From positions 1 to 64,000 of the forward strand of contig JAFRJC010000079.1 in NCBI GenBank assembly GCA_017432445.1: a DNA stretch of 64,000 bases, in the 5' to 3' direction. This document shows, in pieces, positions 13,201 through 59,925 of the stretch. A program made the translations under genes and the position numbers. How positions within the stretch are numbered: position 1 is the stretch's first letter; each line of letters opens with the position of its first letter. The notes under the pieces are model-generated. The model searched no databases and was not told the DNA's origin. It saw only the letters and a list, made by a program, of their open reading frames with translations. The DNA is from Eggerthellaceae bacterium. GTDB lineage: Bacteria; Actinomycetota; Coriobacteriia; Coriobacteriales; Eggerthellaceae.

Positions 13201-13534
13201 CAACAAAGCTAGACGTGTCTAATTCGCGCACATCCCTTATGGGCATATACTCGCTCATGCGCCTGGGCTCTTCCGTCAACCCCATGATCAGTCTTTGCAC
13301 GGCCGTTCGGCTGTGTTCGATGGCCCGCCAAACACGATCTTTGGGAAAGCCTTCATCCGACACGTTGCTAGACCTGCGCAATACCTCGGTCAAACACGCA
13401 GGCATTGGTCGGCCTGTCTTCGGATCGAAGTCGACGAGGCACGAAATCCAATGCGTCTGATTCAGGAGGCCTTCAGCTCTGCGATGAGCGTCTCCACTTG
13501 ATGCGTACCCTATGTAAAGCTCTTCGAGGTTCAT
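10232..13534 (-). CDS. DUF2357-type large protein of TerY-P/McrB-like operon
   Basis: In this 1100-residue protein, residues about 90-160 match the DUF2357 pattern: an RELDxSxF...RRPG segment, then SSDTTENRLLKAYV. This region often accompanies McrB-like ATPases and PD-(D/E)XK-like nuclease parts. A middle stretch (about 380-480, ITPDSLNEFDLEILRRNI, then a hydrophobic strand) resembles an actin/Hsp70-type fold, but that is uncertain. No clear nuclease triad was found. It begins 6 bp after the stop of the McrB-like ATPase gene and is the last gene of the operon, so it is probably the partner that this ATPase acts on. Confidence 0.6.
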   Translation of the reverse strand: MNLEELYIGYASSGDAHRRAEGLLNQTHWISCLVDFDPKTGRPMPACLTEVLRRSSNVSDEGFPKDRVWRAIEHSRTAVQRLIMGLTEEPRRMSEYMPIRDVRELDTSSFVALSRRPGRNIREKLADKPYMQAVRHYQSSDTTENRLLKAYVLELVELLTLRHDYLGESDALLSTLQRWLRSDEALSISRWENLPPNNTLISHRDYRRVWDSWRWLQTIDDDIDRDNEDYTRRCQVRNRWNQLASAYAAGETQFAEMPVIVDWNGFDIRPWDPALVRRQKKTKRSAQRVPITRGPTSVDLTLLTPAYASDGDSGLLASSFIWQCWSNEREGDVEICLFGSDAVMEHPDSRTVMSPDLLFSKQMSKYDLNAAASAFAERMSQLFETSELIWITPDSLNEFDLEILRRNINSYFPHAEPLPCSIAAVLENIGYDEITGDGYSVAVVETLNSVSCVTVLTARFSEELYERVPETKGYIWERDIPRIASQGVEPDSVGYKIALVNKSGEWHNKINPYGTRHKISSNIVAIDENGEFDRYIGLNSRPVSGGLKLMALQKLACGMPIWRSKIPELMTKVFNEGTGQMEYFYFVGRDTTIEPIRGHAKRIPIDQEFVIPAGKTYFELFQGTNESTGIDGEAIEYAAFLRSPDMPFETDVVCRPFLTYTYGADDPYTLVFYPVDQSFDPIRVEWKSKTDIPAEDVPGPNFEASIKWTDLRKQINPRTQQDTDFLKWAVDRGTDMFIETDLSCVGEAYIDGDWRLDKNDKNYTHVDYDGMSVFVHQNNFVSGRAFEEAEDGGRLCFFVGNNKGRPRALCVAGTPGKTKTGFVFSVHSSLYVPFFRIWSDGRSLKDIDCPADFKREIKPVITALVDVAYDDNVGTDIRNEALFLLACMGDDMPDQAVKRLGQITNPKKNLITARTLGFALGGLNEYWQRGLLSWVIGLEDELMLNILANAAWRNPNFIPALSFDEIKEICPRLMNQINIVQTRIAKSHKGQPINSQIYSDATKFLELALALLRIRNSSDVELRRYLQPWQKRSKTLTKHVMRLSADKRFCQSAEKSRVQLDLPARLEDEEGMPALLYALKIYLTGDDRFSAIRITGINEE

Positions 13535-13540
13535 TTATAC

Positions 13541-20286: not shown

Positions 20287-20547
20287 TCGCAGTGAAGTTA
20301 TTTCCTCGCCCGGCTCGAGGATTAGAGCGAGCTGGGGATTCGCCGACTCGCAATCCTTTATTCGTTTCCTTGCTTCAGCCCTTCTCTTTATCTGGACGAC
20401 CTCGCCGCCAATCGAGAGAATGAGCTGGCCGCTATGGGGAAGGCCATGGGCTTTGAGGGTGAGCTTATTCGACCCCTCGTTAAACGAGACGACTTCGTAC
20501 GTCTTCCTCTCTTCCCTCGATTGGCCGGATGCCCGTTGCTCGCGACT

Positions 20548-20550
20548 CTA
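20548..20550 (-). other. In-frame amber codon within helicase gene
   Basis: TAG on the minus strand separates two open stretches of the same frame (368 codons before it; 87 plus 754 after it). No ATG or GTG, and no TTG before 20286, follows it in frame, and conserved helicase sequence resumes directly after it. It may be a nonsense mutation, an assembly error or a suppressed codon. Confidence 0.8.
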
Positions 20551-21654
20551 AGCCATCAGTTCTGCGACGAATTCCTCAAAAGTCATCTCGAGATTCTCTA
20601 TATACGATGGTATTGCGGTAACTATGTCGACTGATTCGATACCGCTGACAGCCATTTCGGTGAATGCAGATTCGCCCGCACTCGACCCAACAAGCTGAAC
20701 GGTCGTGGTCTCGTCAAGTCCAGGAACGGCACCTGAATACGAAAGCACGCCGTACTTTCTCGCCTTCTCTAAAAGGAAGCTTCCTTCTTCGTCGCCATAT
20801 TCATCCCATTTCTTGAGATAGGTCGAGTTTTCATTCGAGAGTTTGATTACCTGCGCTCTCGCGGTAGCCGCGATGGCGCCAGTCGCAGTAAGATCTGAGA
20901 ACTTAAGCCTACCTTTAGCGAGGCGAACGCTTCTTCCGGACCGATTCTCGCGTCTGGTCATCTTGCTAGCGATAAACACATCGCCTATGCCTGTAACCTT
21001 CTTCGCGGTCACTGCAAAGAAAACATCACGGCCTATGATTCCGAAGGAATTGCCCGTAGCGGCAAAGGCGTTCGTCGTAACAGCGATTTGCTCATCCGAG
21101 GATTCATCGTTGTCGGATCCCCGTTGCGCCTCCCTGCGCTCTGCATCCTCCGCAAGGTCCATATCGCTGTCGAGCGCTGAGCCGGCAACGATGAAAAAGT
21201 AGTACTCGTCACCATGCTTGATATTGAAATCCCATTCCATTTGGGAGCGTACTGCTTCTACATCCTTTTTCGAGGTTACCTTGTTGAGGTCCCTGAAGCG
21301 TTCGACGACATATTCGTCTACTGCGATTTCCACGTCGCCCATAATTGATTGCTTCTGGAAAAAAAACGCCATCCTGAGTTCGAAGCTCCCATCGCTGCAG
21401 CGCGGTTCGATTTGCGCCAGATGAGCGCGGCCGAGCGCGAGTTCGCTGTCGAGGCGAGACGATGTGGACTTGTCGACGGGCTCGGCATGAATAACCGTAT
21501 CGTTCGTGAAAATATCGAACTCTCCCAGGACAACATCACTTGGCTTCACGCGCTTCACGGGCAATGGCTTGCTCGCCTCAAGATACGGGATGTCCTCTTT
21601 TGATTTCAGCCTGAATGACAGGATGGGAACGGGGAGGTCTTGGAACTTCATCAT
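20548..21654 (-). CDS. N-terminal part of the interrupted superfamily 1 helicase
   Basis: The 368 residues end at an in-frame TAG and continue in the same frame into the helicase. The segment STYLKKWDEYGDEEGSFLLE near residues 285-305, followed by KARKYGVLSYSGA, is the kind of region found just before the beta-barrel of DNA2/NAM7 helicases. This supports one original gene. The start overlaps the kinase stop (ATGA); a second ATG at 21651 is better spaced from GAGGAGG. It may still be made as a separate subunit, but no good start exists for the downstream half. Confidence 0.7.
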   Translation of the reverse strand: MMKFQDLPVPILSFRLKSKEDIPYLEASKPLPVKRVKPSDVVLGEFDIFTNDTVIHAEPVDKSTSSRLDSELALGRAHLAQIEPRCSDGSFELRMAFFFQKQSIMGDVEIAVDEYVVERFRDLNKVTSKKDVEAVRSQMEWDFNIKHGDEYYFFIVAGSALDSDMDLAEDAERREAQRGSDNDESSDEQIAVTTNAFAATGNSFGIIGRDVFFAVTAKKVTGIGDVFIASKMTRRENRSGRSVRLAKGRLKFSDLTATGAIAATARAQVIKLSNENSTYLKKWDEYGDEEGSFLLEKARKYGVLSYSGAVPGLDETTTVQLVGSSAGESAFTEMAVSGIESVDIVTAIPSYIENLEMTFEEFVAELMA

Positions 21655-22994
21655 GCCTCCTCGGAGAATTTGAACGAGATGATTCCCGACGGGTCTTCAT
21701 AGCCTCTGGATGGTTTTACGGTCTTGTTCTCGTAATCGATAACGAGTCGATAGCCTGTTTCATCGTTGAAATGCTGCAGGTCAAACGGATGCACAAGCCG
21801 ATGGGGCACGATGGTTTCGGCATCACCCTCTTGTACCACCATATCCCAGAAACGGCTTTCCAAAGTGACCGTGCGCGGTTTTTCGGCATCGCAATAAGGA
21901 CAAACGTCTTCGTCCGAGTAATAGGCCATTCTGCAGTTCGGGCAAACCAAGGAGTGGTCATATGCTTGCGATAATGCCATCGACCACAGAGACAGGGGCG
22001 TTCGCTTATAAGGCTCCAGCCTCCCGTATCCTAGAGTTTGCTGGAACATCCAACGCAGCATTGGGGTAAGAACCAGGACCCTCGGTAGACCTGCGTCCGG
22101 GGCCTCATTTGAGTCGTCTTCCTCATCGTCTATAAATGGGAAATGGCCAGCATATGCCATCTCGTCGAGATCTTCGAAATCGACTTCATCGACTGGATCG
22201 TCGCAGTCCCATCCGCCATCGGAGCCCTCGGGGTCGAGCACTCTGCTGCCGATGAAGGGATGGTTAAGGGCAAGCATCTCAAATGCCATTACGGCAAAGG
22301 ACCACACATCTGAAACTTCCCGCGATGCCGCAAGCCCCTGTACGACTTCAGGGGAGCCGAAACGCGGGGTATATACGGTTGCACCGCCACGACGCTGCTC
22401 AAATCTTAGATTGTCGGCATCGATTAGCCAAACTTCATCTGTTGCTTTATCGATGAATACGTTATTTGGCGATAGATCGCAGTAGACCAATCCGTTTGCA
22501 TGGAGCCTTGCCAGCACGGCGGCACAGCCAGCGAGGGCTATCAATCGTTTCCTCGTCGAACCGCTCCTGGCATAGTGTATTAACGGGACGGCCTGATCGG
22601 GATCGACGTTCTCCAGCCATTCAGGAACATCGCCCTCCTTCAACCGCTCCTTTGTTTCGCCCTTGAGGTAGAAGACGCTATCGAAGGGAAACATCCCCCT
22701 CAGGAGTCGCATTACGTATCCTGGCTCGTCTCGAAGAATAGATAGGGGTAGCGCGATTCTCGCATCCTGTGGAATGGGGAGGCTGCGCACGCTGCGGAAT
22801 ATGCTCCGCATGTTCGATCGAAGATCAATTTCCCCTGTTTCTGGGTCAATGGGTTGTTTAATAGCGAGATCGGGGTCCTTCGTCCGATACACGACCCCTT
22901 GACCTCCGCGAGACAGCTCGTTACGCAGATGAAATACGTTGCCGAATTCGTCGACTCGGATCTCTCCGCTTCTCGATAGGATTCCTTCACTCAT
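21651..22994 (-). CDS. Serine/threonine protein kinase with C-terminal zinc ribbon
   Basis: The 447-residue kinase has the glycine loop RGGQGVVY, lysine in LAIKQP, catalytic loop YCDLSPNNV, metal-binding DAD (in place of DFG) in LIDADNL, and SPE in FGSPEV. A zinc ribbon (CPNCRMAYYSDEDVCPYC) follows near residues 385-405. ATG 22994 is preferred because AGGTGG precedes it and the next gene overlaps by ATGAGTGA; an ATG at 23006 is also possible. With the PP2C phosphatase and vWA proteins it forms a TerY-P-type phosphorylation triad. Targets are probably the downstream helicase or ATPase subunits. Confidence 0.9.
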   Translation of the reverse strand: MSEGILSRSGEIRVDEFGNVFHLRNELSRGGQGVVYRTKDPDLAIKQPIDPETGEIDLRSNMRSIFRSVRSLPIPQDARIALPLSILRDEPGYVMRLLRGMFPFDSVFYLKGETKERLKEGDVPEWLENVDPDQAVPLIHYARSGSTRKRLIALAGCAAVLARLHANGLVYCDLSPNNVFIDKATDEVWLIDADNLRFEQRRGGATVYTPRFGSPEVVQGLAASREVSDVWSFAVMAFEMLALNHPFIGSRVLDPEGSDGGWDCDDPVDEVDFEDLDEMAYAGHFPFIDDEEDDSNEAPDAGLPRVLVLTPMLRWMFQQTLGYGRLEPYKRTPLSLWSMALSQAYDHSLVCPNCRMAYYSDEDVCPYCDAEKPRTVTLESRFWDMVVQEGDAETIVPHRLVHPFDLQHFNDETGYRLVIDYENKTVKPSRGYEDPSGIISFKFSEEA

Positions 22995-23715
22995 CTTCCA
23001 CCTCATTTTTTAGAAGGCAAGCGATGGTTTTATCGTCAGTATGTTTTGGAGTTGGCCAATTCTCGAGCATCTCCGTTGCGGCCTTCGTCGCTGAAATGGT
23101 GGCCATTTCAGAAGACGACTCGACAAATCCTTTCAGGAAGCCACGTAAGTTGTCGTCGCCAACAATGTCGTCTGATACTCCATCCGTGCAAAGCACAACG
23201 GCTTCGCATTCGCTTTCCGGGATGCACGCCAGCTTCCACTTGTCGGCAGATACGGTTGCGGAAAGGGGTTCCGCCACATTCGAGAAACTACCGGTTTTAT
23301 CATCGGAAAGAATCGTCACTCTGCCATCCTTCCTAATGACAGCAGCGCATCCGTCTCCGAGAAGCCCAATCCACACCATCGAATTAAAGATGATTCCGAA
23401 TAAGCACGTAGCAGCTGCAGAGCGAGGCTCTAGCGGAGCAATATGCTCAATCCAATAGTCTCTGACATCGTCAAGGAAATCTTCATCCAGGGCGTCGCTT
23501 TCATTGATCCACATGCTAAATGCGGCGCGCTCGACAGCCATACAGGCCGCAGCACTTCCAAAGTGCGAAAAGCCCTTTGATCCGACCCCGTCAGACACGA
23601 CTATCCCGTCGCAGAAAGAACGGTGAAAGGCGCTCCAAGAATCCTGGTTCGGCGTGCGGGTCGATAAATGGCCCGGCCCAATAACGCTCGCTCCGAAGCT
23701 AGTCCAATAGGCCAT
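22987..23715 (-). CDS. PP2C-family serine/threonine phosphatase
   Basis: The 242-residue PP2C domain covers the whole protein. Metal-binding aspartates are seen in TPNQDSW, VVSDGVGS, VLCTDGVSDDIVGD and HTDDKTIACLL. It lies between the vWA genes and the kinase, with a 2-bp gap upstream and an overlap downstream, so the phosphatase and kinase are made together as a reversible switch. This matches the phosphatase of the TerY-P triad described by comparative genomics. Confidence 0.92.
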   Translation of the reverse strand: MAYWTSFGASVIGPGHLSTRTPNQDSWSAFHRSFCDGIVVSDGVGSKGFSHFGSAAACMAVERAAFSMWINESDALDEDFLDDVRDYWIEHIAPLEPRSAAATCLFGIIFNSMVWIGLLGDGCAAVIRKDGRVTILSDDKTGSFSNVAEPLSATVSADKWKLACIPESECEAVVLCTDGVSDDIVGDDNLRGFLKGFVESSSEMATISATKAATEMLENWPTPKHTDDKTIACLLKNEVEDE

Positions 23716-23717
23716 GG

Positions 23718-24176
23718 CTAATCACCGAATTCCTCAAGAGCGGCAAGGATATTCTCGGCGGTAAAGACATATGGGGCGTCGAGCCTTCGATTGGCATCCG
23801 CCCCTAGCAAAACTACCCGCACGTATCCATCGTCATGAGACTTGGCCCAACTTTCGAATTCATTGTCCCGGTCGTCCCAGTAGCCATCTGAGAGAATTAG
23901 CACTGGCGCGTCGAGATAGTCTCCTAGCTCCTTAATCAATGTATCGACGCCTGATGATCCATGGCAATCTAACAGTTTCTCAGGAAAATCGTCTCCTGAC
24001 ATCCATTGCAAGTATTCAATTTCGTCGCCCCAGCCCAAAAGCTTTATTTCGGCATCGGGGTTGAGCATTTGGTAGTACTGGTCGATGGTGCGCAGGGCAG
24101 TATTCATGGCATAGCGCTTGCCACACTCCATCATGCTTCCAGAGAGGTCACATACGATTGTGGCCTCGTTTACCAC
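23718..24176 (-). CDS. Small vWA-domain protein (TerY-like)
   Basis: The 152-residue von Willebrand A domain has the MIDAS motif DLSGSM near residues 10-15 and a second metal-site aspartate in LILSDGYWDD near residue 95. It overlaps the upstream vWA gene by 7 bp. It probably mediates metal-dependent protein interactions in the kinase/phosphatase complex. Two adjacent vWA proteins of different lengths suggest division of labour, or heterodimer formation. Confidence 0.85.
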   Translation of the reverse strand: MVNEATIVCDLSGSMMECGKRYAMNTALRTIDQYYQMLNPDAEIKLLGWGDEIEYLQWMSGDDFPEKLLDCHGSSGVDTLIKELGDYLDAPVLILSDGYWDDRDNEFESWAKSHDDGYVRVVLLGADANRRLDAPYVFTAENILAALEEFGD

Positions 24177-24982
24177 CTGAAGCCCTCCTCCTCGTCCTCA
24201 TCTTCATCGATGACAACGGCGTCGACGATGACGGACCCATCGGCGTCGTCCGCAATAGTGTTTGCCTTCTCTATTGCATTCTCTCCAGATTGCAGTTGTA
24301 GAACTTGCTTAGCGGGTATCAGCTGGTTCGGGTTCTTGGCTTGGGTGCGCTGGGTAACGGTCATCGTCACGAATTTGAAGAATTTGACGATATCTCCCGC
24401 CTGGTCAGCCGTGAAAACGGGGTTGTCGGTTCCCTTTACGAATTCCTCCAGCATTTCCCAAGCGCCGTCGCCTTTTTGGCACCCTACTGCGAGCGCCATG
24501 CGATCACACTTCGCCGTACGGCCATTCGTAATGAAATCATTCAGTGGTGCTTCCCAGCCGTAATCGGGCACACCATCACACACGAGCACGACCAGGGGCC
24601 TGTAGGAGCGGGAGGGAATCTTCTCTTTGTCTTCGATGAGCTCTTTTGCCATAGCCAAGGCAACGTCGAGAGGAGTGTTTGCGTTTGCAGTCAGACCGGT
24701 AAACTGCACCTGTGAAGCTGGCTCCGGAGTTTCTCCGGCAACAAATCGCGCTCCGCGCGGCCCGATTCCGCCAAAAGCAATTGCAGAAACGAGAAACTCA
24801 GACGCAATGCTCTCTTCTTTTGCCAATGAGGTAAGCATCATACGAACAGCCTTATTGAGAACGTCGATCTTTACACCTTCGCCGAGTCGCGCGCCCATCG
24901 ATCCGCTCTCGTCGAGCAGCATGATAATTGGGAGGGGCTTTGCCTTGGTTACAGCGAAATCTGCAGCATTGAACTTTGCCAT
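24170..24982 (-). CDS. vWA-domain protein (TerY-like), first gene of operon
   Basis: The 270-residue vWA protein has MIDAS motif DESGSMG near residues 24-30, a conserved threonine region NANTPLDVAL and VLVCDGVPD. It ends in an acidic tail (DEDEDEEEGF). AGGAGA precedes the ATG. It is the first gene of a tightly packed eight-gene (nine-segment) operon running down to 10232. TerY proteins of this type are scaffold parts of stress and defence complexes. Confidence 0.9.
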   Translation of the reverse strand: MAKFNAADFAVTKAKPLPIIMLLDESGSMGARLGEGVKIDVLNKAVRMMLTSLAKEESIASEFLVSAIAFGGIGPRGARFVAGETPEPASQVQFTGLTANANTPLDVALAMAKELIEDKEKIPSRSYRPLVVLVCDGVPDYGWEAPLNDFITNGRTAKCDRMALAVGCQKGDGAWEMLEEFVKGTDNPVFTADQAGDIVKFFKFVTMTVTQRTQAKNPNQLIPAKQVLQLQSGENAIEKANTIADDADGSVIVDAVVIDEDEDEEEGFRW

Positions 24983-34060: not shown

Positions 34061-34191
34061 TTCAAAGCAGCTCCGCAGCGTGTACCGTGAAAAGGACAGG
34101 GGGGCTGCTGTTGGCCGTCTATTTGTGCTACAGTTCACCTATCAGACTGCGACGATGCAGCCAGGAAAAAACGCCGGGAGAAGAGGTTCTC

Positions 34192-35175
34192 ATGGCAGCG
34201 AACGGCAAGCAAAAGCTCAAGCTCCTCTACCTGTACAAGATGCTCGACGAGCAGACCGACGCCGAACACGGTCTGTCCATGGCCCAGATACTCGAGAAGC
34301 TCGAGGAGCAGGGCATCACGGCCGAACGCAAGGGCATCTACAAGGACCTCAACGTGCTGCGGGAGTTCGGCTGCACGATAGGCACCATCCAGCACATGCC
34401 CGTGGAGTACACCATGGAGAAGACGGGCCTCGACCTAGCCGAGCTCACGCTGCTCGTCGACGCGGTGCAGTCGAGCCGCTTCCTCACCCAGCGAACGGCC
34501 AACCGGCTCGTCAAGAAGCTCTCTGACCTCGCGAGCGTCCACGAACGCGATGCGCTCAAGCGGCGAGTGCACGTCGACGGCCGCGTGAAGAGCCAGTCGG
34601 ACTCGGTCTTCTACAACGTCGACACGATCCACGAGGCCATGAGGCTCAAGCGCAAGGTGGCGTTCCTCTACTTCAAGTACGACAGCAACATGAACCCCGA
34701 GGCGCAGCACGACGGCAAGCTCTACGTGCAGACGCCGGTACACGTCGTGTTCGCGAACGGCTACTACTACCTCATCGGCTGGTCGGACAACCACGAGGAC
34801 TTCGTACGCTTCAGGATCGACCGCATGAGGCTTCTGCAGGTGTCCGACGAGAAGGCGACACGCAACCAGGAGATCGCCAACTACGCCTTCGAGGATTTCG
34901 CCTACCAGGCCTTCGGCATGTACGGTGGCGAGCCGGTCAGCGCCAAGCTGCGCGTGGCGCCAGACGCCATGGACATCGTCGCCGACCGCTTCGGCACGGA
35001 CGTGCCCACAAGGCCCCGCAAGGACGGCGGCGCCGAGGTGTCGGTAACCGTGCGCAAGAGCGCGCAGTTCTTCGGCTGGGTAGCCGGCATGAACGGGGCC
35101 GTGACGATCGCGGGACCAAAGAAGCTCGCAGACGAGTACCGCTCCTGGCTGCGGGGTCTAGCAGAACAGGCCTAA
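34192..35175 (+). CDS. WYL-domain transcriptional regulator
   Basis: The 327-residue protein has an N-terminal winged helix (about 5-65: LKLLYLYKMLDEQTDAEHGL, MAQILEKLEEQGI, KGIYKDLNVLREFG), a WYL domain (about 140-215, FANGYYYLIGWSDN, FRIDRM) and a WCX domain at the end. ATG 34192 follows GGGAGAAGAGG. It is a paralogue of the regulator at 25243 and lies between small accessory genes, so it may regulate the divergent zinc-ribbon gene or act elsewhere on the element. Confidence 0.88.
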   Translation: MAANGKQKLKLLYLYKMLDEQTDAEHGLSMAQILEKLEEQGITAERKGIYKDLNVLREFGCTIGTIQHMPVEYTMEKTGLDLAELTLLVDAVQSSRFLTQRTANRLVKKLSDLASVHERDALKRRVHVDGRVKSQSDSVFYNVDTIHEAMRLKRKVAFLYFKYDSNMNPEAQHDGKLYVQTPVHVVFANGYYYLIGWSDNHEDFVRFRIDRMRLLQVSDEKATRNQEIANYAFEDFAYQAFGMYGGEPVSAKLRVAPDAMDIVADRFGTDVPTRPRKDGGAEVSVTVRKSAQFFGWVAGMNGAVTIAGPKKLADEYRSWLRGLAEQA

Positions 35176-39337: not shown

Positions 39338-40198
39338 CTACTGCACCCTTTGTCGTACCCATTTGATAAACGGCGTCCGATTATCACGCCCGCCCACGCC
39401 GAGGCCATACCAGTCATTCGAAACGATATACGACTCGTCGCCGATGGGAATCGGGCTCTCGTAATATCGCCTGTTCCCATGTCTATCGCGGGCTTCCACC
39501 TTGACTCCGTCAAGTGACATCCCCGTCACGCACTTCAGAATCGCGAAAGAATGCTCGAGCACCTGCTTGCAATACTCGGCGTCCATCAATGCGCTGATGT
39601 CGGCGTCAAGCGTCGGGCTGCCATCCTTGAGCAGCTGGATGCACTTCATCGCGAACTCTTTGTTCTTCATGACGCTGAGCGGATCGATGCGGCGTTCGGG
39701 CTTTCCACCGTCTTTGCTTTCGCCTGCCTTGCCGCGAGAAAAGCCGCCATTGCAAGCCTCGTTGACCTTGTCGCTGACATCCTGTACGAACCCTCGGCTA
39801 CGAAGCCCGTCATCGAGCGTAATGCACCAGTAGTTGCAGGCTCTATCGTATTTGGCAACTTCGCGCGCCTGGGCAACCGCGACCTCGCTCGCCGACTCGA
39901 TGTAACCGTCTTCGTCAAAAACGAGCATCACGAGCACGTCGAAATCCCAGTCCTCTATCGCGGGAAGCTGGATTGGCCCAGATTGGGTTCGCTTGGCAGA
40001 CCTCGTTTCAACGATGCGCCCATCGGCGAGCCGCATTGCCTCTGATCGGCCAGCCACGGATGTACCCGCATCGTACGCTTCCGCAACCAAGATGTCGCCT
40101 ATTGCCGAAAGGATATCGTCCTCGCGCCCGAGAGCTTTCGCAAGTTCGCTTTTCGCCCGATTGTAGTTAAACCAAAGTTCAGCTATGTCGCGTGGCAT
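39338..40198 (-). CDS. DUF6998-like (restriction-fold) protein
   Basis: The 286-residue protein has an N-terminal region like DUF6998 proteins: SAIGDILVAEAYDAGT, LADGRIVETRSAK and AIEDWDFDVLVMLVFDEDGY (about 30-115). These have a shape related to restriction endonucleases, but the catalytic lysine context is changed (VETRSAK). The C-terminal half is unrecognised. ATG 40198 has AAGGGGAT upstream; the frame to 40303 is unsupported. It lies between the methyltransferase and the 390-residue gene. Confidence 0.6.
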   Translation of the reverse strand: MPRDIAELWFNYNRAKSELAKALGREDDILSAIGDILVAEAYDAGTSVAGRSEAMRLADGRIVETRSAKRTQSGPIQLPAIEDWDFDVLVMLVFDEDGYIESASEVAVAQAREVAKYDRACNYWCITLDDGLRSRGFVQDVSDKVNEACNGGFSRGKAGESKDGGKPERRIDPLSVMKNKEFAMKCIQLLKDGSPTLDADISALMDAEYCKQVLEHSFAILKCVTGMSLDGVKVEARDRHGNRRYYESPIPIGDESYIVSNDWYGLGVGGRDNRTPFIKWVRQRVQ

Positions 40199-40331
40199 CG
40201 CAATCCCCTTCACCAAACGTAGTAAGGGGATGATCCCACTAGCCGATCGAAAGATCAAATGCTCAGCACAGCAATCCGACACCCGTCGATTCCGTGCTAA
40301 CACTATCGATGCGCACTAGCCCACCTTCGAA

Positions 40332-41843
40332 TTAAGCGGTGAGCGTCTTGATGACCTCTTTCCCGAGCGCGTATGCGAGCAACGGCGGAATGGCGTCGCC
40401 GATTTGCTCGTACTGGTCCTGCTCCGGGTCGCTGTGGAACTTGACGTACGGTCCCTGGAACAGATACCAGTCGGGGAACGACTGCAAACGCGCCGCCTCT
40501 CTCGGGCTCAGACCGCGGTTCGCCGTAGGGTGGATCATCTCGTCAAGGCAATGCGACGTCACCGTGAACGACGGCTCTTCGGGACGCAATCTCCTGTTCC
40601 TAGCCGCGTAAATCTTCTTGGGGAAGTATTCCGCTACGAGGTCGTCGTTGCCCTCAGCCGCCAGTCTCAAGCTCGCCGATTTCATGCTTTCGCCCTGCTT
40701 GATGAGCTCGATGCGGCCGAGCATCTTCTTGGTGTGGCCAGGTGCCTTGTGCCCGGTAAGCGTGTCCTCCTCAAAATTGAGGTGCTCGGGTGGCATGGAG
40801 AGTTCGCCCCTCATGCGCCTGATGAACATGTCGCGCGCCGTGCCCGATTCGAGCGTGCCGATGTCGAACTTGTACTTCGTGCTCTCGCAGCCAACCCCAA
40901 TGCTGGGGAGGTCCGAGATCGCATCGCCGACGGTCACGTACGGGAAATCAGCGCCGGGGCCATTGGTCTTCTTCGGGTAGCTGAAGGTGAGCTCGGGGTA
41001 TTTCCTATTCAGACCGACGAGGAAAAGCCTCTCGCGCGCTTGCGGGACCCCGTATTCCACGGCTTTCAGAAGCACGGTGTCCTTGTCGCGTGATGCCAGG
41101 ACGTATGATGGCTCGTCGTCCTTGCCCTCGCTTTCGAACTCGTCGCAGATCGCCTTGTACATCGCGCCCGCCTTGCCGTCCATCTTCTTGGAGAACAAGC
41201 CCTTGACGTTCTCGAACATGAACATCCTCGCGTCGACGGCCTTCGCGATGCGAAGAACGTTTTGGTAGAGCTGGTTGCGGTCGTCTTCCTCCTTGCGATC
41301 GCCGGCCATGCTGAAGCTCTCGCACGGTGCGCCGCCGGTGACGATGTCGACGGTATCGACCCCGAAACGCGACTGCAGAATCGCATCGATCAATTCCTTA
41401 GAGACGAGGTTGATGTCGCCGTATATGAGGACAGGCTTCTCGCAAGGCGATAGGAACGGCTGCAGCTCCGCCGGGTCAGTCAGGTACTGGTTCAAATCGA
41501 GGATATCAGCGCCGTGGGATTGCGCGTACGTCTGGGTGGTCCAATAGCTCCATTCCACCGCGATGAGCGGCTTTATGCCCGCCCAGCGGAACCCAGTTGC
41601 CAGCCCGCCCGGCCCCGAGAACAAATCGATGCTGGTCAGATACGGTTTTTCGGGAATAGAGTAGTCCTCTTTATAGCGCAGGGCCCTCTTGTCGCCGGGC
41701 TTCGTCGCGTTGCACGGCACCATCCAGGCGTTTGACACCTTCTTCGCGCCGAATATGCGCCCTTCTGCGCAATAGGTCTGCACCCTCCGCTTCGAGACGC
41801 CCCACTTCTTCGCTGCTTCAGCCGCAGACATCATCTCGGTCAT
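40332..41843 (-). CDS. DNA (cytosine-5-)methyltransferase with N-terminal HTH
   Basis: In this 503-residue protein, residues 5-50 form an excisionase-like helix-turn-helix (SAAEAAKKWGVSKRRVQTYC). The C5-methyltransferase follows: motif I IDLFSGPGGLATGF (72-85), motif IV GGAPCESF with catalytic C174, ENVKG, VPQARERLFLVG, and late motifs LSPREAARLQSFPD and QIGDAIPPLLA. AGGAGGGT precedes ATG 41843. The adjacent endonuclease (MspI-like) is its likely partner in a type II system; the target sequence is not readable here. Confidence 0.95.
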   Translation of the reverse strand: MTEMMSAAEAAKKWGVSKRRVQTYCAEGRIFGAKKVSNAWMVPCNATKPGDKRALRYKEDYSIPEKPYLTSIDLFSGPGGLATGFRWAGIKPLIAVEWSYWTTQTYAQSHGADILDLNQYLTDPAELQPFLSPCEKPVLIYGDINLVSKELIDAILQSRFGVDTVDIVTGGAPCESFSMAGDRKEEDDRNQLYQNVLRIAKAVDARMFMFENVKGLFSKKMDGKAGAMYKAICDEFESEGKDDEPSYVLASRDKDTVLLKAVEYGVPQARERLFLVGLNRKYPELTFSYPKKTNGPGADFPYVTVGDAISDLPSIGVGCESTKYKFDIGTLESGTARDMFIRRMRGELSMPPEHLNFEEDTLTGHKAPGHTKKMLGRIELIKQGESMKSASLRLAAEGNDDLVAEYFPKKIYAARNRRLRPEEPSFTVTSHCLDEMIHPTANRGLSPREAARLQSFPDWYLFQGPYVKFHSDPEQDQYEQIGDAIPPLLAYALGKEVIKTLTA

Positions 41844-41936
41844 GGACCCTCCTGAGCTATTGTTCCGACTTGCGAACGTTAGCACAGTATAAGCGAGGGT
41901 TGCAAATATCTCTACAAGATGCGCAGCATTTCTTCG

Positions 41937-47394: not shown

Positions 47395-47761
47395 AATTAC
47401 CGTCCTTTGGGAATCGACAAAGATGCCGTGATTGCCTTAGCTGAAATTCTATCACCCGATACTCAAAAAAGGCATTTACCAGTGCGGAGAGGCTAACGAA
47501 GTCTTTTGCAATGTCGCTTTTAATGGCAGTTAGATTCATGCTTTCAAGAGCATAATCTTTTGAGCAGCGTTGTGAGTATTGTGCGAGATTATCGCCCGTG
47601 GTTTTACATACGCGGGAAACCAATACTTAATCTCAATCTTCATCGCTAGCGGGCTCTTATGTTCAAGCAGTATTGAAATCGACCTTAGTAAACCAAAACT
47701 GCAGAATACGCATCAGGATTAATAGGGCTCTGCCCTATTAATCCTGATGCGAGCTAAACGT
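47395..47761. other. Gene-free stretch ending in a perfect 19-bp palindrome
   Basis: No gene is supported in this 367-bp gap, which is AT-rich compared with its left neighbour. At 47710-47728 and 47732-47750 two perfect 19-bp arms (start GCATCAGGATTAATAGGGC) enclose a three-base loop, 12 bp beyond the stop of the alpha-CTD/sigma-like gene. No T-run follows on either strand, so it may be a terminator of unusual form or a protein-binding site. The promoter of the MORC-like gene must lie here as well. Confidence 0.6.
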
Positions 47762-50479
47762 TTATCGTTTTTTCCGAATCGCAACACCTGCATGCACCTC
47801 GAAACCGAGGTCTTCTATCGCACGCTTATTAAGCTTCTCCTTATCGCCGTCAGGGAATAATTTGAAATAGATCTTCTTTATTTGCACTAGGCTATAACGA
47901 TCGTCCGTTAGGTTCTCTCGGAGCCTATATGCTTCTATAAAATCGAAGTGAGCGTAATCTCTCTCATTCCTGGATCGATCCTTCACTTTTTTATTTACGC
48001 GATTCATCTTTATATAACCGCCAGAAACATATTGTTTTACGTATGTGAGATAGCTTGTCTTGAAGGTGCTGGGCTCGACGCCGTATTCCTGTTCATATGC
48101 GTTCGCGAGATCGTCGATAGAAATCGGGGCAAGTTTCTTTGCCAAAGACTTAACTTGTTCTTCCCGATCGGCATTTTTGCCCACGATAATCATGGGCATT
48201 CTTCTGCACGGCCTGTATGGCAATCCCTTTGCCTCTTTGTTTGCCTCATAGTATTTGCGCAGCACACTGTGTAATTCGTAAGGATCATCTAAACCATAAT
48301 CTGAGAGAACCTCAGGATTGTTTCGAAGGAAAACTCTCGTTGAAATCTCTTTATTGAAATGCTCCCTTAGCCTCAGCTCCTTCAGCAAACAAGGAATATC
48401 GTACTCACGATAGTCGTAATACCTCATCCGTTTTCCGTTGCCGCTTATCACGCATTCGTTATGCCGCATCGTGGACGTATATCTTTCGGAAAGAGCGAAC
48501 TCACCGTCAGCGTCTAATCCATGCTGCGCCAGGAATTCGTAGTATCTGCTGATGAATTCAGCATCTGCTATAGAGCGCTTTGATCCGTAAAGCTTCAGAA
48601 CGTGCAGGGCGAGAACTTGCCTGCTAGCTTTTACGTACTCTCCGCCAAGCTTGATATAGCCGTAGTAAATTGCCTCTTCAAGCTGCAGCTTCACGCGCTG
48701 CGGCAGTCGCTGCGATCGCAGGAGCTCAGTTGCCGAATAACGATATTCGCCGGAATCGCCATCAGTGAAATCGAAGTAATGCGAGGCGGCGTTCCATTCT
48801 TCTCGCGTTGCGCCTAGGCCATCGCAACAGTGTCGCTCCGTCAATTCGTAGCTCTTCAAAAGAAGGTAGTATTGCTTCGCTCTCGTTCCGTCCAAGGACA
48901 GCTTTCTGGTTGCTTTTTGCAGTATCTGTCTAACTCTTTCGCCGGTAATGCCAAGATCTACGCTGATCTCTTCGCTAGTTTTACCTTCAATCCTTTTGCT
49001 AAGAGCTGCTATCTCTTCGACATCATTAATCGAGCGATCCACCATCAAGCTCAATGGCAGATCTACGGAGAATAGCAAGCCTTCTTTTTCTTGGATTAGT
49101 CCTCGCCTGATAGCTTGCTCAACACCTCTGTTAACAAACTCATTTGATCTTTCGTCAAGCTCTGAGGAGAAGATGAGCCTGATCTCGTCAACTGTCAAAC
49201 CCCAGGGGCTTTCAGTAAGTAGTTTTTGCGCAGCAGAAGCTGCTAAAGCATCGTAAGCTTCGTTCTTGTCTACGCTCGATCCTCTTTCGAGGATAAGTAG
49301 AAAAGCAGCTGGCGAAACAACCATGCTTTCTGATAAGCCAAGTATCAAATCTCTGACAGCAAGCTTTACCTCATCCTCATGCTCTTTTCTAAACTTATCA
49401 ACCTTGTGTATTTCTTCCTGTTCAGCGACGTTGTCTTCCGACTCTTCCGCGGCAGCGTCTTCCAATAACCGCGGATGGTCAGTGAGGTAGCTCTCCATTT
49501 GCCCGTTGGCGCATTCGAGGATCTCGGCCACTGTAACTATGCCCGTATTCTTAAGGGCCAGAAGACCCCCTTCGCCAAGCGCAAGTATCTCACCTAAGCT
49601 TTTTGTTTTCGCAAACCGCAAGGCGTTCCGCGCCCTTGTAGACAGCTCAGTAACATCAAGCTCAATCGAGAAGAGCTCTTGTGGTATTTGTTTATTTCCC
49701 TTCGGCAACGGCAACTTTAATCCACTCGCTCCAGACATGGATGAACTACTTTGCCGAACGTGGTTGCCTATTGGGCTTTGACGCTTATTGAAATCGTCGA
49801 CTAGAAAATGGCTCAAGTCCCTTAAGGCTTCCTCGATTTCGGCAATCGTCTTTGCCCCAGAATTTCGCATTTCGGAAATATGACCTCGTCCTAATGCGCA
49901 TAAATCTGCGATCGTTTCGACTTTTGCTCGTTTGAGAATGTTCGATGATCGAGTTCCGAGTTTGAGCTCTTCGATGGGCAACGTATAAAGATAAGCGAGG
50001 AAGCCCTTCTCGTCCGTTAGCGCGTCGAACTCTCTCAATGCTGCAAGGGCGATTTCGTTCGCGATCTTTTTTGACGAGACGTGAATGACAGTATTTGCAT
50101 TTGACGGTAATAGCAATGATTTGGCAATACCGAGAACCTGCTCTTCGGAAAGACATTGAAGCGCATCGTAGTTATCGCTCCCTAGTCCATGCTTAAGAAG
50201 GTAGGTGGAAAGCGACATATGCACCATACTCTTTAGCGAATCATAAGGTGTTGCCTCTGGCTTTGACCTATGATTCGATTCGCAATCGGAGTTCGTTTCG
50301 TCTAGTTCTGGGCAATTAATCTCGGTGAGCCATTCAAAGGAATCGTTGTCTTGGTTGCCGAAAGGATCCCAATCTAGAGTTTGTCGCAAGAATTCAAGCA
50401 CCTCATCGCGGCTCATATTCATGGCATCATCTGCGTTGTTTGAGCCAATTTGCTCTTCGCCGTCGTTCATATCAACCAT
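47762..50479 (-). CDS. Protein with two RNAP alpha-CTD-like domains and a sigma-4-like HTH
   Basis: In this 905-residue protein, two regions match the RNA polymerase alpha C-terminal domain. One is near residues 165-225 (LPIEELKLGTRSSNILKRAK, then a second helix with EMRNSGAKTIAEIEEAL). The other is near 270-325 (LDVTELSTRARNALRFAK, ALKNTGIVTVAEIL). A sigma region-4-like helix-turn-helix follows near 500-530 (KTSEEISVDLGITGERVRQI). The last 370 residues are unrecognised and basic at the end. This is a transcription-machinery-like chimera of unknown job next to the restriction cluster. The ribosome site is weak. Confidence 0.8.
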   Translation of the reverse strand: MVDMNDGEEQIGSNNADDAMNMSRDEVLEFLRQTLDWDPFGNQDNDSFEWLTEINCPELDETNSDCESNHRSKPEATPYDSLKSMVHMSLSTYLLKHGLGSDNYDALQCLSEEQVLGIAKSLLLPSNANTVIHVSSKKIANEIALAALREFDALTDEKGFLAYLYTLPIEELKLGTRSSNILKRAKVETIADLCALGRGHISEMRNSGAKTIAEIEEALRDLSHFLVDDFNKRQSPIGNHVRQSSSSMSGASGLKLPLPKGNKQIPQELFSIELDVTELSTRARNALRFAKTKSLGEILALGEGGLLALKNTGIVTVAEILECANGQMESYLTDHPRLLEDAAAEESEDNVAEQEEIHKVDKFRKEHEDEVKLAVRDLILGLSESMVVSPAAFLLILERGSSVDKNEAYDALAASAAQKLLTESPWGLTVDEIRLIFSSELDERSNEFVNRGVEQAIRRGLIQEKEGLLFSVDLPLSLMVDRSINDVEEIAALSKRIEGKTSEEISVDLGITGERVRQILQKATRKLSLDGTRAKQYYLLLKSYELTERHCCDGLGATREEWNAASHYFDFTDGDSGEYRYSATELLRSQRLPQRVKLQLEEAIYYGYIKLGGEYVKASRQVLALHVLKLYGSKRSIADAEFISRYYEFLAQHGLDADGEFALSERYTSTMRHNECVISGNGKRMRYYDYREYDIPCLLKELRLREHFNKEISTRVFLRNNPEVLSDYGLDDPYELHSVLRKYYEANKEAKGLPYRPCRRMPMIIVGKNADREEQVKSLAKKLAPISIDDLANAYEQEYGVEPSTFKTSYLTYVKQYVSGGYIKMNRVNKKVKDRSRNERDYAHFDFIEAYRLRENLTDDRYSLVQIKKIYFKLFPDGDKEKLNKRAIEDLGFEVHAGVAIRKKR

Positions 50480-50580: not shown

Positions 50581-50883
50581 CTAATAGCGTCCGCTTCTTT
50601 CATGAAGAACCTTGCCTTCAAGGTCGACCCACACTATTTCGAACTCGATTGCGTCAGATAGAGGGTAAGCGCCAAGATTTATGAAAGCTTTCTCGTTTTT
50701 AACCTCAACGATGGCCTTTGCGAATGCGACCACCTTACCATAACCGCTTCTATGCGTTTTCAAATCTTGCTTGTCGTAGCCCTGCTTTGCTAAAGCATAC
50801 TCGTCACCACAGAAGAGCGTTCGATACCCTTCGATGCTATTCATCTCATCAAGGTATTCGCCATAAATAAACGCGAACGACAT
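50581..50883 (-). CDS. Hypothetical protein, 100 residues
   Basis: The protein starts MSFAFIYGEYLDEMNSIEGY and contains a mixed alpha/beta sequence (YGKVVAFAKAIVEVKN, EFEIVWVDLEGKVL). ATG 50883 follows AAGGTTGA. It lies 101 bp upstream of the alpha-CTD/sigma-like gene on the same strand and may be co-transcribed with it. No family recognised. Confidence 0.55.
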   Translation of the reverse strand: MSFAFIYGEYLDEMNSIEGYRTLFCGDEYALAKQGYDKQDLKTHRSGYGKVVAFAKAIVEVKNEKAFINLGAYPLSDAIEFEIVWVDLEGKVLHERSGRY

Positions 50884-51019
50884 AAGGCTCAACCTTTCAA
50901 CTTGAACACTTTGAGTTGATAATACGCCAGGTATTCTCAATTTGAGACCTTTTCGTAGTCAAACGCAAGTGGCCTACTCCGTGTACACAGTACCCGGAGC
51001 AGCACTTGCCGGCTTACCT

Positions 51020-51236
51020 CACGCGTGTGTAACGATTCGTGAATCATGCCTGGCGTGAAGCCGGTACCGACCGTGCGGATTTCGTTGTGTTGCGCGCTCG
51101 GTCGGTGTGTCTACTGCCAAAGCCACGGCTTTGGCAGTAGACTATACGGGGGATTCCCCGCGCCCCTAAAACCGAATACTCGGCGAGACCGCTTCCAAAA
51201 CTCACTGGCCTCGCCACGATGCGAAGGAACACTGCC
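51020..51236. other. Candidate origin of transfer (oriT)
   Basis: This gene-free stretch precedes the relaxosome and relaxase genes. It holds a perfect 14-bp inverted repeat (51111-51124 with 51127-51140, start CTACTGCCAAAGCC) and a second imperfect pair, GACCG/CGGTC, at 51068-51105. Inverted repeats just upstream of mobC/relaxase genes are the usual place for oriT and nic. The gap from 50884 to 51020 holds nothing else recognised. Confidence 0.5.
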
Positions 51237-51659: not shown

Positions 51660-52934
51660 ATGCCGGTATTGAAGCCCATATCGGGGCACAGCTCGGCACG
51701 CCCCATCATGCTCTACCTCATGAAGAAGAACCGCTCGATCGCAGCCGACTACATCAACCTCGACGCGCCACTCGATGAGCGCGATGCCGTTTGCTTCGAC
51801 TGGGCCGCCGAGATGGACGCGACCCGGCACGCCCTCGGCAACGACGTACCCTGGCGCGGGATGCGCGTTCGCACCTACAAGCACTACATAGTCTCGCCCG
51901 ACCCGAAAGACCATATCGGGCTCGACGATTTGCGCGACCTTACGCGATCGTGGGCCTCGGAGCACTTTGGCGACTACGAGGTCGCCATCGTCTACCACGA
52001 CGACAACGAGCGCGGCATCCCGCACGCCCACGTGGTCGTGAACAACACCAACCTCGAAACGGGCCGCAGGCTGCAGGATCCAGACCCTGCGGCGCTCAAC
52101 CACTCGCTGCAGAGGATGGCGGCCGAACGGGGGCTTCGCCACTTCTCGGACACTGCAGAGCTGGCCGGGGTGACGGCGCGGGCAGAGAAGATGAGCAAGC
52201 GGACACGCCCCAGGTCGCTTCAACGCGAGTACGTGCGACGCGCGGAGGCCGATCTCGTCGCCCAAGGCGAGTACTCGTGGACCGCGGACATCCGCGCCCG
52301 CGTTAGGGTCGCCCGTACCGTCGCGAGGAGCGAGGCGGAGTTCAGAGGCGCGCTCTCCGCCATGGGGATCGTGGTCTCCGACAACTCGCCGAAGGCGCCG
52401 AGGCGCGACTGGCTGTACAGCTTCGCGGACCATCCGGCCAGGCGCATCTCGGGCGAGAAGCTGGGGCTGTCATACGGCAGGGAAAGGCTGCTCTCCTCGT
52501 TCAAACTAAAGGGCGCGGGGCATCTGCCCGACGCGTCCGAGAGAGAGATCGCCCGCATCGCCAAGGCCGCGATAGAGGTTGGCGACCTCGAGGGGCTGAG
52601 GAGGCTCGCTCGCGCGGTCGCCCTCATCGACGCCAACAACATCTGCTGCCTTCGCGACCTCGAGCGCTTCAGGGCCTCCGATTACGCTAAGCGGGTATGG
52701 ACCGACCCGGGAGAGGAGGAGGCGGGCCAGCTCGTGGCCTTCATCGAGCAAGCGGGGATCCTCCCCGAAAGGGCGTCCCCGTACGCAGCTAGGGAACCTG
52801 CCAGCAGGCGCCAGAGCGGCGGCCGCCGCGGCGAGGGAGGCTTTTCTAGCAGGGCCGGCTCGGAGCGCCTGCGAGACGCGCCCGCGCAATCACAACAGCA
52901 AAGGACCGGCAACGAAAAGGGCGGTGCGAGATGA
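51660..52934 (+). CDS. MobA/VirD2-type relaxase
   Basis: The 424-residue relaxase has RTYKHYIVSPDP near 75 and the metal-binding motif ERGIPHAHVVVNNTN near 118-132 (H-x-H), preceded by VAIVYHDD. It lacks a helicase domain, so it is of the small mobilization type. It nicks oriT and leads single-strand transfer. No type IV secretion genes are in the window, so the element would depend on another for transfer. Its stop overlaps the next gene by ATGA. Confidence 0.92.
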   Translation: MPVLKPISGHSSARPIMLYLMKKNRSIAADYINLDAPLDERDAVCFDWAAEMDATRHALGNDVPWRGMRVRTYKHYIVSPDPKDHIGLDDLRDLTRSWASEHFGDYEVAIVYHDDNERGIPHAHVVVNNTNLETGRRLQDPDPAALNHSLQRMAAERGLRHFSDTAELAGVTARAEKMSKRTRPRSLQREYVRRAEADLVAQGEYSWTADIRARVRVARTVARSEAEFRGALSAMGIVVSDNSPKAPRRDWLYSFADHPARRISGEKLGLSYGRERLLSSFKLKGAGHLPDASEREIARIAKAAIEVGDLEGLRRLARAVALIDANNICCLRDLERFRASDYAKRVWTDPGEEEAGQLVAFIEQAGILPERASPYAAREPASRRQSGGRRGEGGFSSRAGSERLRDAPAQSQQQRTGNEKGGAR

Positions 52935-58919: not shown

Positions 58920-59132
58920 ATGAGCAACGGATTCTTCAACGACCACTCCATGCTCGGCGCAATGTTCGACTTTGACCGGGACGGGTCGCTCGACCTCGGC
59001 GAGGCGATGTTCATGGGCGCAATGGGCGCGGCGATCATCGACGAGGAGGAGCGTGCGTCCCGGAAAGCGGAGCGCGAAAGCAGCGTCTGGGACGATGCCG
59101 ATGACTGGGAGACGGACGAAGATGACTGGTAG
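58920..59132 (+). CDS. Small acidic protein with canonical EF-hand loop
   Basis: The 70-residue protein contains a perfect 12-residue calcium-binding loop DFDRDGSLDLGE (residues 17-28) and an acidic, Trp-rich tail (VWDDADDWETDEDDW). Its stop overlaps the start of the metallo-beta-lactamase-fold gene by 11 bp, so they are coupled. Calcium-dependent regulation of the hydrolase is possible. Confidence 0.7.
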   Translation: MSNGFFNDHSMLGAMFDFDRDGSLDLGEAMFMGAMGAAIIDEEERASRKAERESSVWDDADDWETDEDDW

Positions 59133-59925
59133 GCTCGAACTCGCAATCCTCGCGAGCGGCAGCTCTGGCAACGCGGCAATCGTGCGCGATGCAGAGACCG
59201 GCCGATCCCTGCTCGTTGACTGCGGGATCTGCGCGAGCGCCTTCTTCGGAAGATGCGACGAGGCGGGCGTCGACCCATCGGAAATCGAGGCGGTCCTCGT
59301 GACGCACGGGCATTCCGACCACACTTCCGGTCTCGGCGTCGTCCTTCGCGGGCTCGCGAAACGGGGATGCACGCCGCCGCTCTACGCGCATTCTCTTACA
59401 CGCTCCGCAAGCAAGAAGATCACCGAGACCGATGGCCTCGTCGAGCAGTTCGACATCGCCCACGGGAAACCGTTCGAGGTTGCGGGGATGACGGTCACGC
59501 CGTTCCCCACGAGCCACGACTCCGAAGGCTCCACGTGTTTCCGCTTCGAGGTAGGAGACGACGCGATCGGCTACATGACCGACACCGGCGTCGTCACGCC
59601 TAAAGCCCACGAGGCCCTTACAGGCGTCCGCATCCTCGCTATCGAGAGCAACCATGACAAGGCGATGCTCAAGGAGGGCCCATACCCTCCCTTCCTGAAG
59701 TGGCGGATACTCGGCAACGAAGGCCATCTGTCGAACGCTCAGTGCCGCAAGCAGGTCGTCTCCCTGCTTCACCCGAGCCTCGAGCACGTTGTCGCTATGC
59801 ACGTGAGCGAGAACAACAACACGTTCGAACTGCCCGCTGAGGTGCTTTCGGAAGCGCTCGCCGCCCATGGCCACGGAGCCTGCGTCCACGTCGCTCTGCC
59901 CGATAGACCCATCACGGTCTCGTAA
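59122..59925 (+). CDS. Metallo-beta-lactamase-fold hydrolase (YycJ-like)
   Basis: The 267-residue protein has ASGSSGNAAIV near residue 10, metal motif THGHSDHTSG near 60, TSHDSEGS near 130 and IESNHD near 170. This matches the YycJ/WalJ group, which acts on nucleic acid or phosphodiester substrates. ATG 59122 overlaps the EF-hand gene. The frame extends to the left only as a shadow of that gene. Confidence 0.92.
   Translation: MTGRLELAILASGSSGNAAIVRDAETGRSLLVDCGICASAFFGRCDEAGVDPSEIEAVLVTHGHSDHTSGLGVVLRGLAKRGCTPPLYAHSLTRSASKKITETDGLVEQFDIAHGKPFEVAGMTVTPFPTSHDSEGSTCFRFEVGDDAIGYMTDTGVVTPKAHEALTGVRILAIESNHDKAMLKEGPYPPFLKWRILGNEGHLSNAQCRKQVVSLLHPSLEHVVAMHVSENNNTFELPAEVLSEALAAHGHGACVHVALPDRPITVS

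Follow-up and report, generated by a model that had tools for sequence, protein, structure and literature searches.

We analysed a 64,000-nucleotide stretch of an Eggerthellaceae genome (contig JAFRJC010000079.1), here called the window. It encodes P0001, a protein of 905 residues read from an ATG start, among the following features:

39338..40303, minus strand: 321-aa protein with a weak match to a methyl-directed Type II restriction enzyme
40332..41885, minus strand: C5-cytosine DNA methyltransferase (Dcm), 517 aa
41937..43109, minus strand: MspI-like restriction endonuclease, 390 aa
43133..44854, minus strand: Mrr-type nuclease-SF2 helicase fusion, 573 aa
44854..47394, minus strand: GHKL ATPase (HATPase_c_3) with zinc ribbons, 846 aa, a paraMORC-like neighbour
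47709..47751: perfect inverted repeat with 20-nt arms and a 3-nt loop, dG -37.6 kcal/mol, no T tract
47762..50479, minus strand: P0001, with two alpha-CTDs, a sigma-4 HTH and tandem winged helices, ending ~230 aa short of the family C-terminus
47768..48883, minus strand: P0001 residues 533-904, first part of the conserved tandem winged-helix C-terminal module, ending at a domain boundary
48884..49033, minus strand: P0001 residues 483-532, sigma region-4-like HTH (Pfam, contact residues)
49496..49678, minus strand: P0001 residues 268-328, alpha-CTD 2 (Pfam, HMM, contact residues)
49805..49996, minus strand: P0001 residues 162-225, alpha-CTD 1 (Pfam, HMM, contact residues, fold)
50581..50940, minus strand: short ORF upstream of P0001, without a Pfam match
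51109..51142: second perfect inverted repeat with 16-nt arms and a 2-nt loop, bordering the P0001 unit on its upstream side
51660..52934, plus strand: MobA/VirD2-type relaxase, a marker of a mobile element

The hairpin at 47709..47751 (z=-8.9) lies 10 nt past the P0001 stop codon and is the probable end of the P0001 transcription unit, which possibly includes the ORF at 50581..50940. Downstream on the same strand and 367 nt away lies the GHKL ATPase/Mrr-helicase/MspI/Dcm cluster. The MspI-like endonuclease adjoins Dcm there, making the pair a Type II restriction-modification system as predicted from profile matches. Brx profiles (BrxC, PglZ) had no match among the neighbouring proteins scanned, which are part of the window ORFs. 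That P0001 is carried on a mobile element, as the earlier note had it, is plausible given the relaxase and a tyrosine integrase at 6723-7985.

Other parts of the window hold further genes of possible interest. A second low-GC cluster on the minus strand (10232-24982) encodes proteins of 1100, 843, 653, 753, 368, 451 and 270 aa, including a wHTH-PRTase_assc protein (653), an AAA_11/12 helicase (753), a protein kinase (451) and a VWA protein (270). It adjoins the integrase and resembles another conflict system. A WYL-WCX regulator, a type frequent beside defence genes, is encoded at 34087-35175, and a metallo-beta-lactamase-fold protein at 58972-59925 has a weak match, below cut-off, to the anti-Pycsar protein Apyc1.

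The earlier note described P0001 as a chimera of two alpha-CTD-like domains and a sigma-4-like HTH, and profile and structure comparisons bear this out. Pfam RNA_pol_A_CTD matches the protein in two stretches (E=1.1e-20; 73.6 bits versus a cut-off of 23.8), and Sigma70_r4 matches residues 497-527 above its curated cut-off (E=4.6e-6). RNA polymerase alpha was the sole kind of match when P0001 was compared by phmmer with the PDB. A profile built from 30 relatives matches alpha-CTD (7e-17) and sigmaA region 4 (1e-10), both where expected. The AlphaFold model has a mean pLDDT of 75.5, with about 85-93 across both alpha-CTDs and about 86-97 for most of residues 490-820. Using Foldseek, a 55-60 residue stretch of the model superposes on solved RNA polymerase alpha-CTDs within 1.0-1.3 A (for example 7vpd_S, TMt 0.90, probability 1.00). 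The alpha-CTD fold is thus confirmed, and the outcome that would have spoken against the earlier note, only generic helix-hairpin-helix domains, did not appear. HHH_5 had no Pfam match in P0001 at E<=1, and we rejected a generic HhH protein because Pfam, phmmer and Foldseek all pointed to alpha-CTD only.

The C-terminal half of P0001 after sigma-4 is a winged-helix array by AlphaFold and Foldseek, with weak SelB, Dcc1 and TFIIIC-like matches. Whole-chain Foldseek matches to TFIIIC, SelB, Dcc1 and UFL1 had low TM-scores and were taken as tandem winged helices only. This array and the truncation of P0001 relative to its family are features absent from the earlier note. Only CTD matches of alpha were found by Pfam, with no alpha NTD (the assembly domain) detected in P0001. 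Sigma-2, for -10 and core binding, had no match at E<=1, and a sigma-3 match fell below its cut-off over the same HTH as sigma-4. Neither a NERD nuclease nor a Ser/Thr kinase was matched in P0001 by Pfam.

Rather than standing alone as a chimera, P0001 belongs, as a truncated orphan, to a widespread, apparently unnamed, defence-associated bacterial family. A chance origin of its architecture is excluded because dozens of distant relatives repeat it. In most intact members two to three alpha-CTDs and a sigma-4 HTH stand ahead of a constant tandem winged-helix module. Domain counts for the 73 non-redundant members that reach 750 aa show sigma-4 in 67, between one and three alpha-CTDs in 52, and both kinds of domain in 51; the HMMs behind these counts were partly trained on P0001 and P0004, and Pfam on individual members agrees. 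The remaining 21 of the 73 have no detectable alpha-CTD, and promoter reading is therefore not universal in the family.

When the members are aligned, the C-terminal module is constant and the N-termini vary. The module is also found behind other N-termini, among them a segment that resembles the C-terminal half of type II restriction endonucleases, in loci with a linked MutH-type enzyme. This points to an exchangeable N-terminus serving recognition and a C-terminus serving coupling. Proteins of ~515 aa with the family module are encoded in loci L113 (5991-7547), L114 (6017-7570), L116 (5976-7532), L120 (5992-7545) and L126 (8388-9926). The L113 protein matches a type II restriction endonuclease profile at its N-terminus (1.7e-28, over the C-terminal half of the profile), and its gene lies beside those for Dcm, a MutH-type enzyme and ParB/SNF2. 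A 401-aa member (L046, 8030-9235) has an N-terminus that is PglZ-like by eye.

The family is encoded in genomes of Bacillota, Actinomycetota, Spirochaetota and Melainabacteria, and the annotations seen were only 'sigma factor-like HTH' or 'hypothetical'. Profile searches placed members in 12 of the 123 genera of the window's order. By tblastn we found homologues in Enterococcus and Exiguobacterium plasmids annotated as 'sigma factor-like helix-turn-helix DNA-binding protein'. One Exiguobacterium plasmid (L049, 2886-11833) has three tandem family paralogues downstream of Dcm and Vsr, without ParB/SNF2. No members were found in 2.9 million viral contigs, scanned behind exact-pattern prefilters, or in 50,697 phage records. 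Viral scans with A1, P0002 and A5 likewise returned no relatives, the single-protein patterns being too specific. No published name or description of the family was found in the searchable literature, which excludes subscription papers and some preprints. Neither the ParB nor the family protein is modelled in PADLOC 2.0.0 other than through cross-matches to alpha-CTD, HTH and restriction endonuclease.

We then compared the polymerase-derived domains with those of E. coli at contact residues assigned from established alpha-CTD/DNA and sigma-4/-35 structures. In alpha-CTD1 the family keeps R265 (98%), the main DNA contact, as well as N268 (92%), N294 (81%), G296 (100%), K298 (75%), S299 (79%) and E302 (92%). 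Identity to E. coli averages 0.88 at these seven positions versus 0.25 elsewhere (permutation p about 1e-5). For sigma-4 the mean is 0.85 at eight contact positions (R562, L573, E574, R584, E585, R588, Q589 and K593) versus 0.21 elsewhere, also with a permutation p of about 1e-5. The alpha-CTD1 residues for sigma-4 contact (257-261) and CRP contact (285-288) are not kept, and the sigma-4 loop before the HTH is five residues shorter in the family. P0001 itself retains equivalents of R265, N268, N294, G296, K298 and E302 in alpha-CTD 1, with S299 replaced by T. Its alpha-CTD 2 retains R265, N268, N294, G296 and E302, with V in place of K298, and its sigma-4 retains R562, E574, E585, R588, Q589 and K593, with R584 replaced by G and L573 by S.

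With the DNA faces selectively kept, unlike the alpha docking surfaces, the polymerase-derived domains of the family are probably DNA readers rather than polymerase-docking pieces. Judging from sequence conservation, DNA reading appears to be the property under selection. A decoy for CRP-like activators was rejected because the docking residues are not kept. The earlier note had also proposed that P0001 hijacks host polymerase or is a specialised activator. A single chain with two kinds of RNA polymerase domains would suit a hijacker or activator on a mobile element, but we consider this highly improbable: the alpha NTD and sigma-2 were not detected, the alpha 261 and 287 determinants are not conserved, and the neighbours are restriction and helicase genes. 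Specialised activation is not indicated.

In most members the next gene codes for a ~405-aa protein that carries VIDGNRR, a motif of the ParB/Srx type, and an SNF2 helicase gene comes after it. To survey this pairing, about 85,000 species genomes were scanned with the ParB-like neighbour as the sole query, giving 155 loci of which 80 were kept. They come from Clostridia, Bacilli, Coriobacteriia, Bifidobacterium, Arcanobacterium, Treponema and Melainabacteria. The family gene adjoins ParB in 75 of the 80, mostly overlapping it or at most 20 nt apart, and four of the other five loci stop at or near the ParB gene. Because ParB alone was the query, this adjacency is not built in. Distances between ParB proteins and between C-terminal modules also co-vary (Mantel r=0.80, reached in 0 of 2000 permutations; 66 non-redundant loci). 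The family gene is thus co-inherited with the ParB-like gene and one of two further parts: an SNF2 helicase, which may or may not carry a PLD nuclease domain, or a HEPN domain at the N-terminus of ParB.

Two operon layouts were found. Fifty loci have the order family gene, ParB, SNF2, in which the helicase comes in a ~620-aa form and a ~855-aa form whose N-terminal PLD domain (PLDc_2-SNF2) carries HxK...GSxN. Half of these loci (25 of 50) have a Dcm and MutH/Sau3AI-like pair, an Eco57I-type methyltransferase or BREX genes in their flanks, which upholds the link to defence. The second layout is HEPN_Swt1-ParB (~575 aa), family gene, HIRAN, with the HEPN and HIRAN assignments resting on one scanned representative each. 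It accounts for 25 HEPN-ParB-sized loci, 22 of which have the R[NDE]x3-5H motif. None of the 25 codes for a methyltransferase, restriction endonuclease, BrxC, PglX or PglZ, and one has a BrxL only. A BrxL-like gene (E=2.8e-214 with a BrxL profile) comes after a gene of HEPN-ParB size in Ruminococcus (L088, 6930-13211).

Additional family members lie within BREX loci or beside McrBC, and solo members without ParB/SNF2 are found beside Dcm/Vsr (Exiguobacterium) and inside a BREX locus (G411). Four Coriobacteria BREX loci (L012, 2737-19591; L013; L046; L047) have PglX split into an N-terminal gene of ~850 aa and a C-terminal gene of ~325 aa with small ORFs between, and family members between the N-terminal gene and PglZ. 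Six loci (L081, L090-L093, L096) share a nearly alike set of an Eco57I methyltransferase, a T5orf172-helicase, a short family member of 437 aa, ParB and SNF2. This five-gene set is common to Bifidobacterium, Collinsella, Paraeggerthella and Arcanobacterium, which suggests recent transfer across orders.

As the first gene of the helicase-type operons, with DNA faces kept in the absence of polymerase-contact surfaces, the family gene might code for a transcriptional regulator or silencer. Such a protein would bind UP and -35 elements, keep polymerase away and so silence either the AT-rich promoters of foreign DNA or its own operon together with linked restriction-modification genes. Several members that, like the window copy, lack ParB/SNF2 and lie beside Dcm/Vsr or in BREX loci would fit. 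We find this reading unlikely, as ~900-1500 aa with many winged helices is far above the size of a simple repressor, the gene is tightly co-inherited with ParB and helicase or HEPN genes, and in the HEPN type it lies downstream of ParB.

We favour, at a probability of about 0.45, P0001 being a truncated, orphan member of a promoter-mimicking DNA-recognition family that reads promoter-like DNA and signals via the ParB-like protein. The alpha-CTDs would bind the minor groove of AT-rich, UP-like DNA and sigma-4 the major groove of a -35-like element, so that the family protein would read promoter-like DNA without polymerase. The winged-helix module would relay the binding state to the ParB-like protein, under whose control the helicase/nuclease or the HEPN RNase would act against DNA that invades the cell. 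A linked methyltransferase, where present, would mark self DNA. Host promoters are self DNA, and promoter reading alone therefore gives no self/non-self rule without that methyltransferase. An anti-phage function is suggested by gene neighbourhood. The near absence of restriction-modification and BREX genes from the HEPN-ParB loci and the members without a detectable alpha-CTD speak against this explanation, as do, for P0001, the missing ParB partner, C-terminus and R584. The window copy retains the DNA-reading domains but lacks the C-terminal module and partners.

A more ambitious version is that the family forms a widespread immune module with a polymerase-free promoter-reading surface (UP element and -35) as its recognition subunit. 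It would detect active or unoccupied foreign promoters, or guard polymerase surfaces modified by phages, and a ParB-like switch would trigger PLD-helicase or HEPN effectors. We regard this version as doubtful.

The domains could instead be bait. The family operons encode HEPN and PLD effectors, both of a kind typical for abortive systems. Under a guard or decoy reading, alpha-CTD and sigma-4 would attract polymerase-attacking phage proteins, namely ADP-ribosyltransferases acting on alpha R265 and AsiA-like anti-sigma factors, and modification or binding would free the ParB/helicase/HEPN effectors. Phage T4 has both kinds: Alt and ModA, which modify Arg265 of alpha, and AsiA, which binds to region 4 of sigma (PMC2988021). 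Both targets are present in the family, with R265 98% conserved, and a decoy or sensor of phage takeover, as proposed in the earlier note, is conceivable. However, conservation of R265 does not separate the guard from the DNA reader, as Arg265 makes the principal contact with DNA too. The rest of the DNA face is likewise mostly kept, which bait alone would not need, while the alpha docking surfaces are not kept and the sigma-4 loop ahead of the HTH is shortened. We rate the guard or decoy as quite unlikely.

Within the DNA-recognition family that we favour, the window copy is a weak representative. In the alignment P0001 stops directly after the motif preceding the last ~230 residues of full-length relatives, and it is homologous to the C-terminal winged-helix module over the first part only. 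No remnant of the missing residues was found downstream in any frame, ruling out a frameshift or missed continuation. A ParB-like, SNF2 or HEPN partner was absent beside P0001 in the window, and a hidden ParB or SNF2 was looked for there without success. No ParB partner was found in the window's genome using a profile that does match in relatives. The GC content of the P0001 DNA is 47% versus 53-64% on its flanks. We found no close homologue among 150 relatives or in the order survey. A phylum survey with P0001 gave a single chance-level alpha-CTD match (G100) beyond its own genome; a second match in its own genome (L002) was the normal rpoA. A contig scan of genomes with P0001 alone returned no relatives, its single-protein pattern being too specific.

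The window copy is thus a relic or repurposed orphan beside the Dcm/MspI/GHKL restriction cluster. We give even odds to it being a non-functional relic of horizontal transfer, which is compatible with the family-level explanation. The loss of the C-terminus exactly past a conserved motif, the missing ParB, the R584G and L573S changes in sigma-4, the low GC and the lack of a close homologue all favour a relic. The stop-free frame of 905 codons, the intact DNA residues of alpha-CTD1, the clean hairpin past the stop codon and the solo members beside Dcm/Vsr in other genomes argue against it. P0001 may still serve as a DNA-binding accessory, because solo members (Exiguobacterium, G411) show that the arrangement recurs. 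We consider this role about as likely as relic status; at most the copy may bind DNA as an accessory to the neighbouring Dcm/MspI cluster or regulate it.

The closest precedents of the family are PglW, PbeA of PbeABCD and HEPN-ParB fusions. PglW of BREX type 2 has an alpha-CTD-like domain followed by three winged HTHs (PMC12839542). The P0001 family is similar in having alpha-CTDs before winged helices in a restriction/BREX context, and PglW profiles match P0001, though only over the alpha-CTD. Unlike PglW, the family lacks the NERD nuclease, kinase and iSTAND, and has sigma-4, two to three alpha-CTDs and ParB with SNF2/HEPN partners. In its long form the SNF2 partner is an HKD(PLD)-helicase resembling PbeA (PADLOC PbeA, E=9.6e-73), as in PbeABCD (PMC10853773, PMC6459918). 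In contrast to PbeABCD and CxC systems, the CxC ABC ATPase and DndE are absent among the conserved operon genes, part of the neighbours having been profiled, and a ParB-like protein and the alpha-CTD/sigma-4 protein stand in their place.

The GHKL ATPase, SF2 helicase, restriction endonuclease and Dcm of the window resemble paraMORC/GHKL restriction-modification operons, for which the parts of PMC2292703 consulted describe no alpha-CTD/sigma-4 protein. P0001 is set off from this paraMORC-class cluster by the 367 nt and strong hairpin noted above. The HEPN_Swt1-ParB of the second operon type is like the Saro_3948-type HEPN-ParB fusions (PMC3710099), whereas a term search of that paper found neither an alpha-CTD/sigma-4 partner nor a HIRAN gene. 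As in RNA polymerase alpha and sigma-70 factors, the family has homologous DNA-reading domains with conserved DNA contacts. It differs from them in lacking polymerase-assembly domains and in its surveyed contexts, which are restriction, BREX, plasmid or ICE-like.

The family is a shared partner linking restriction-modification, BREX, PLD-helicase and HEPN modules. If the proposed mechanism is true, bacteria would have turned the domains with which their own RNA polymerase reads promoters into a device for immune recognition, with promoter-like DNA recognition or the guarding of polymerase surfaces as the testable principle.
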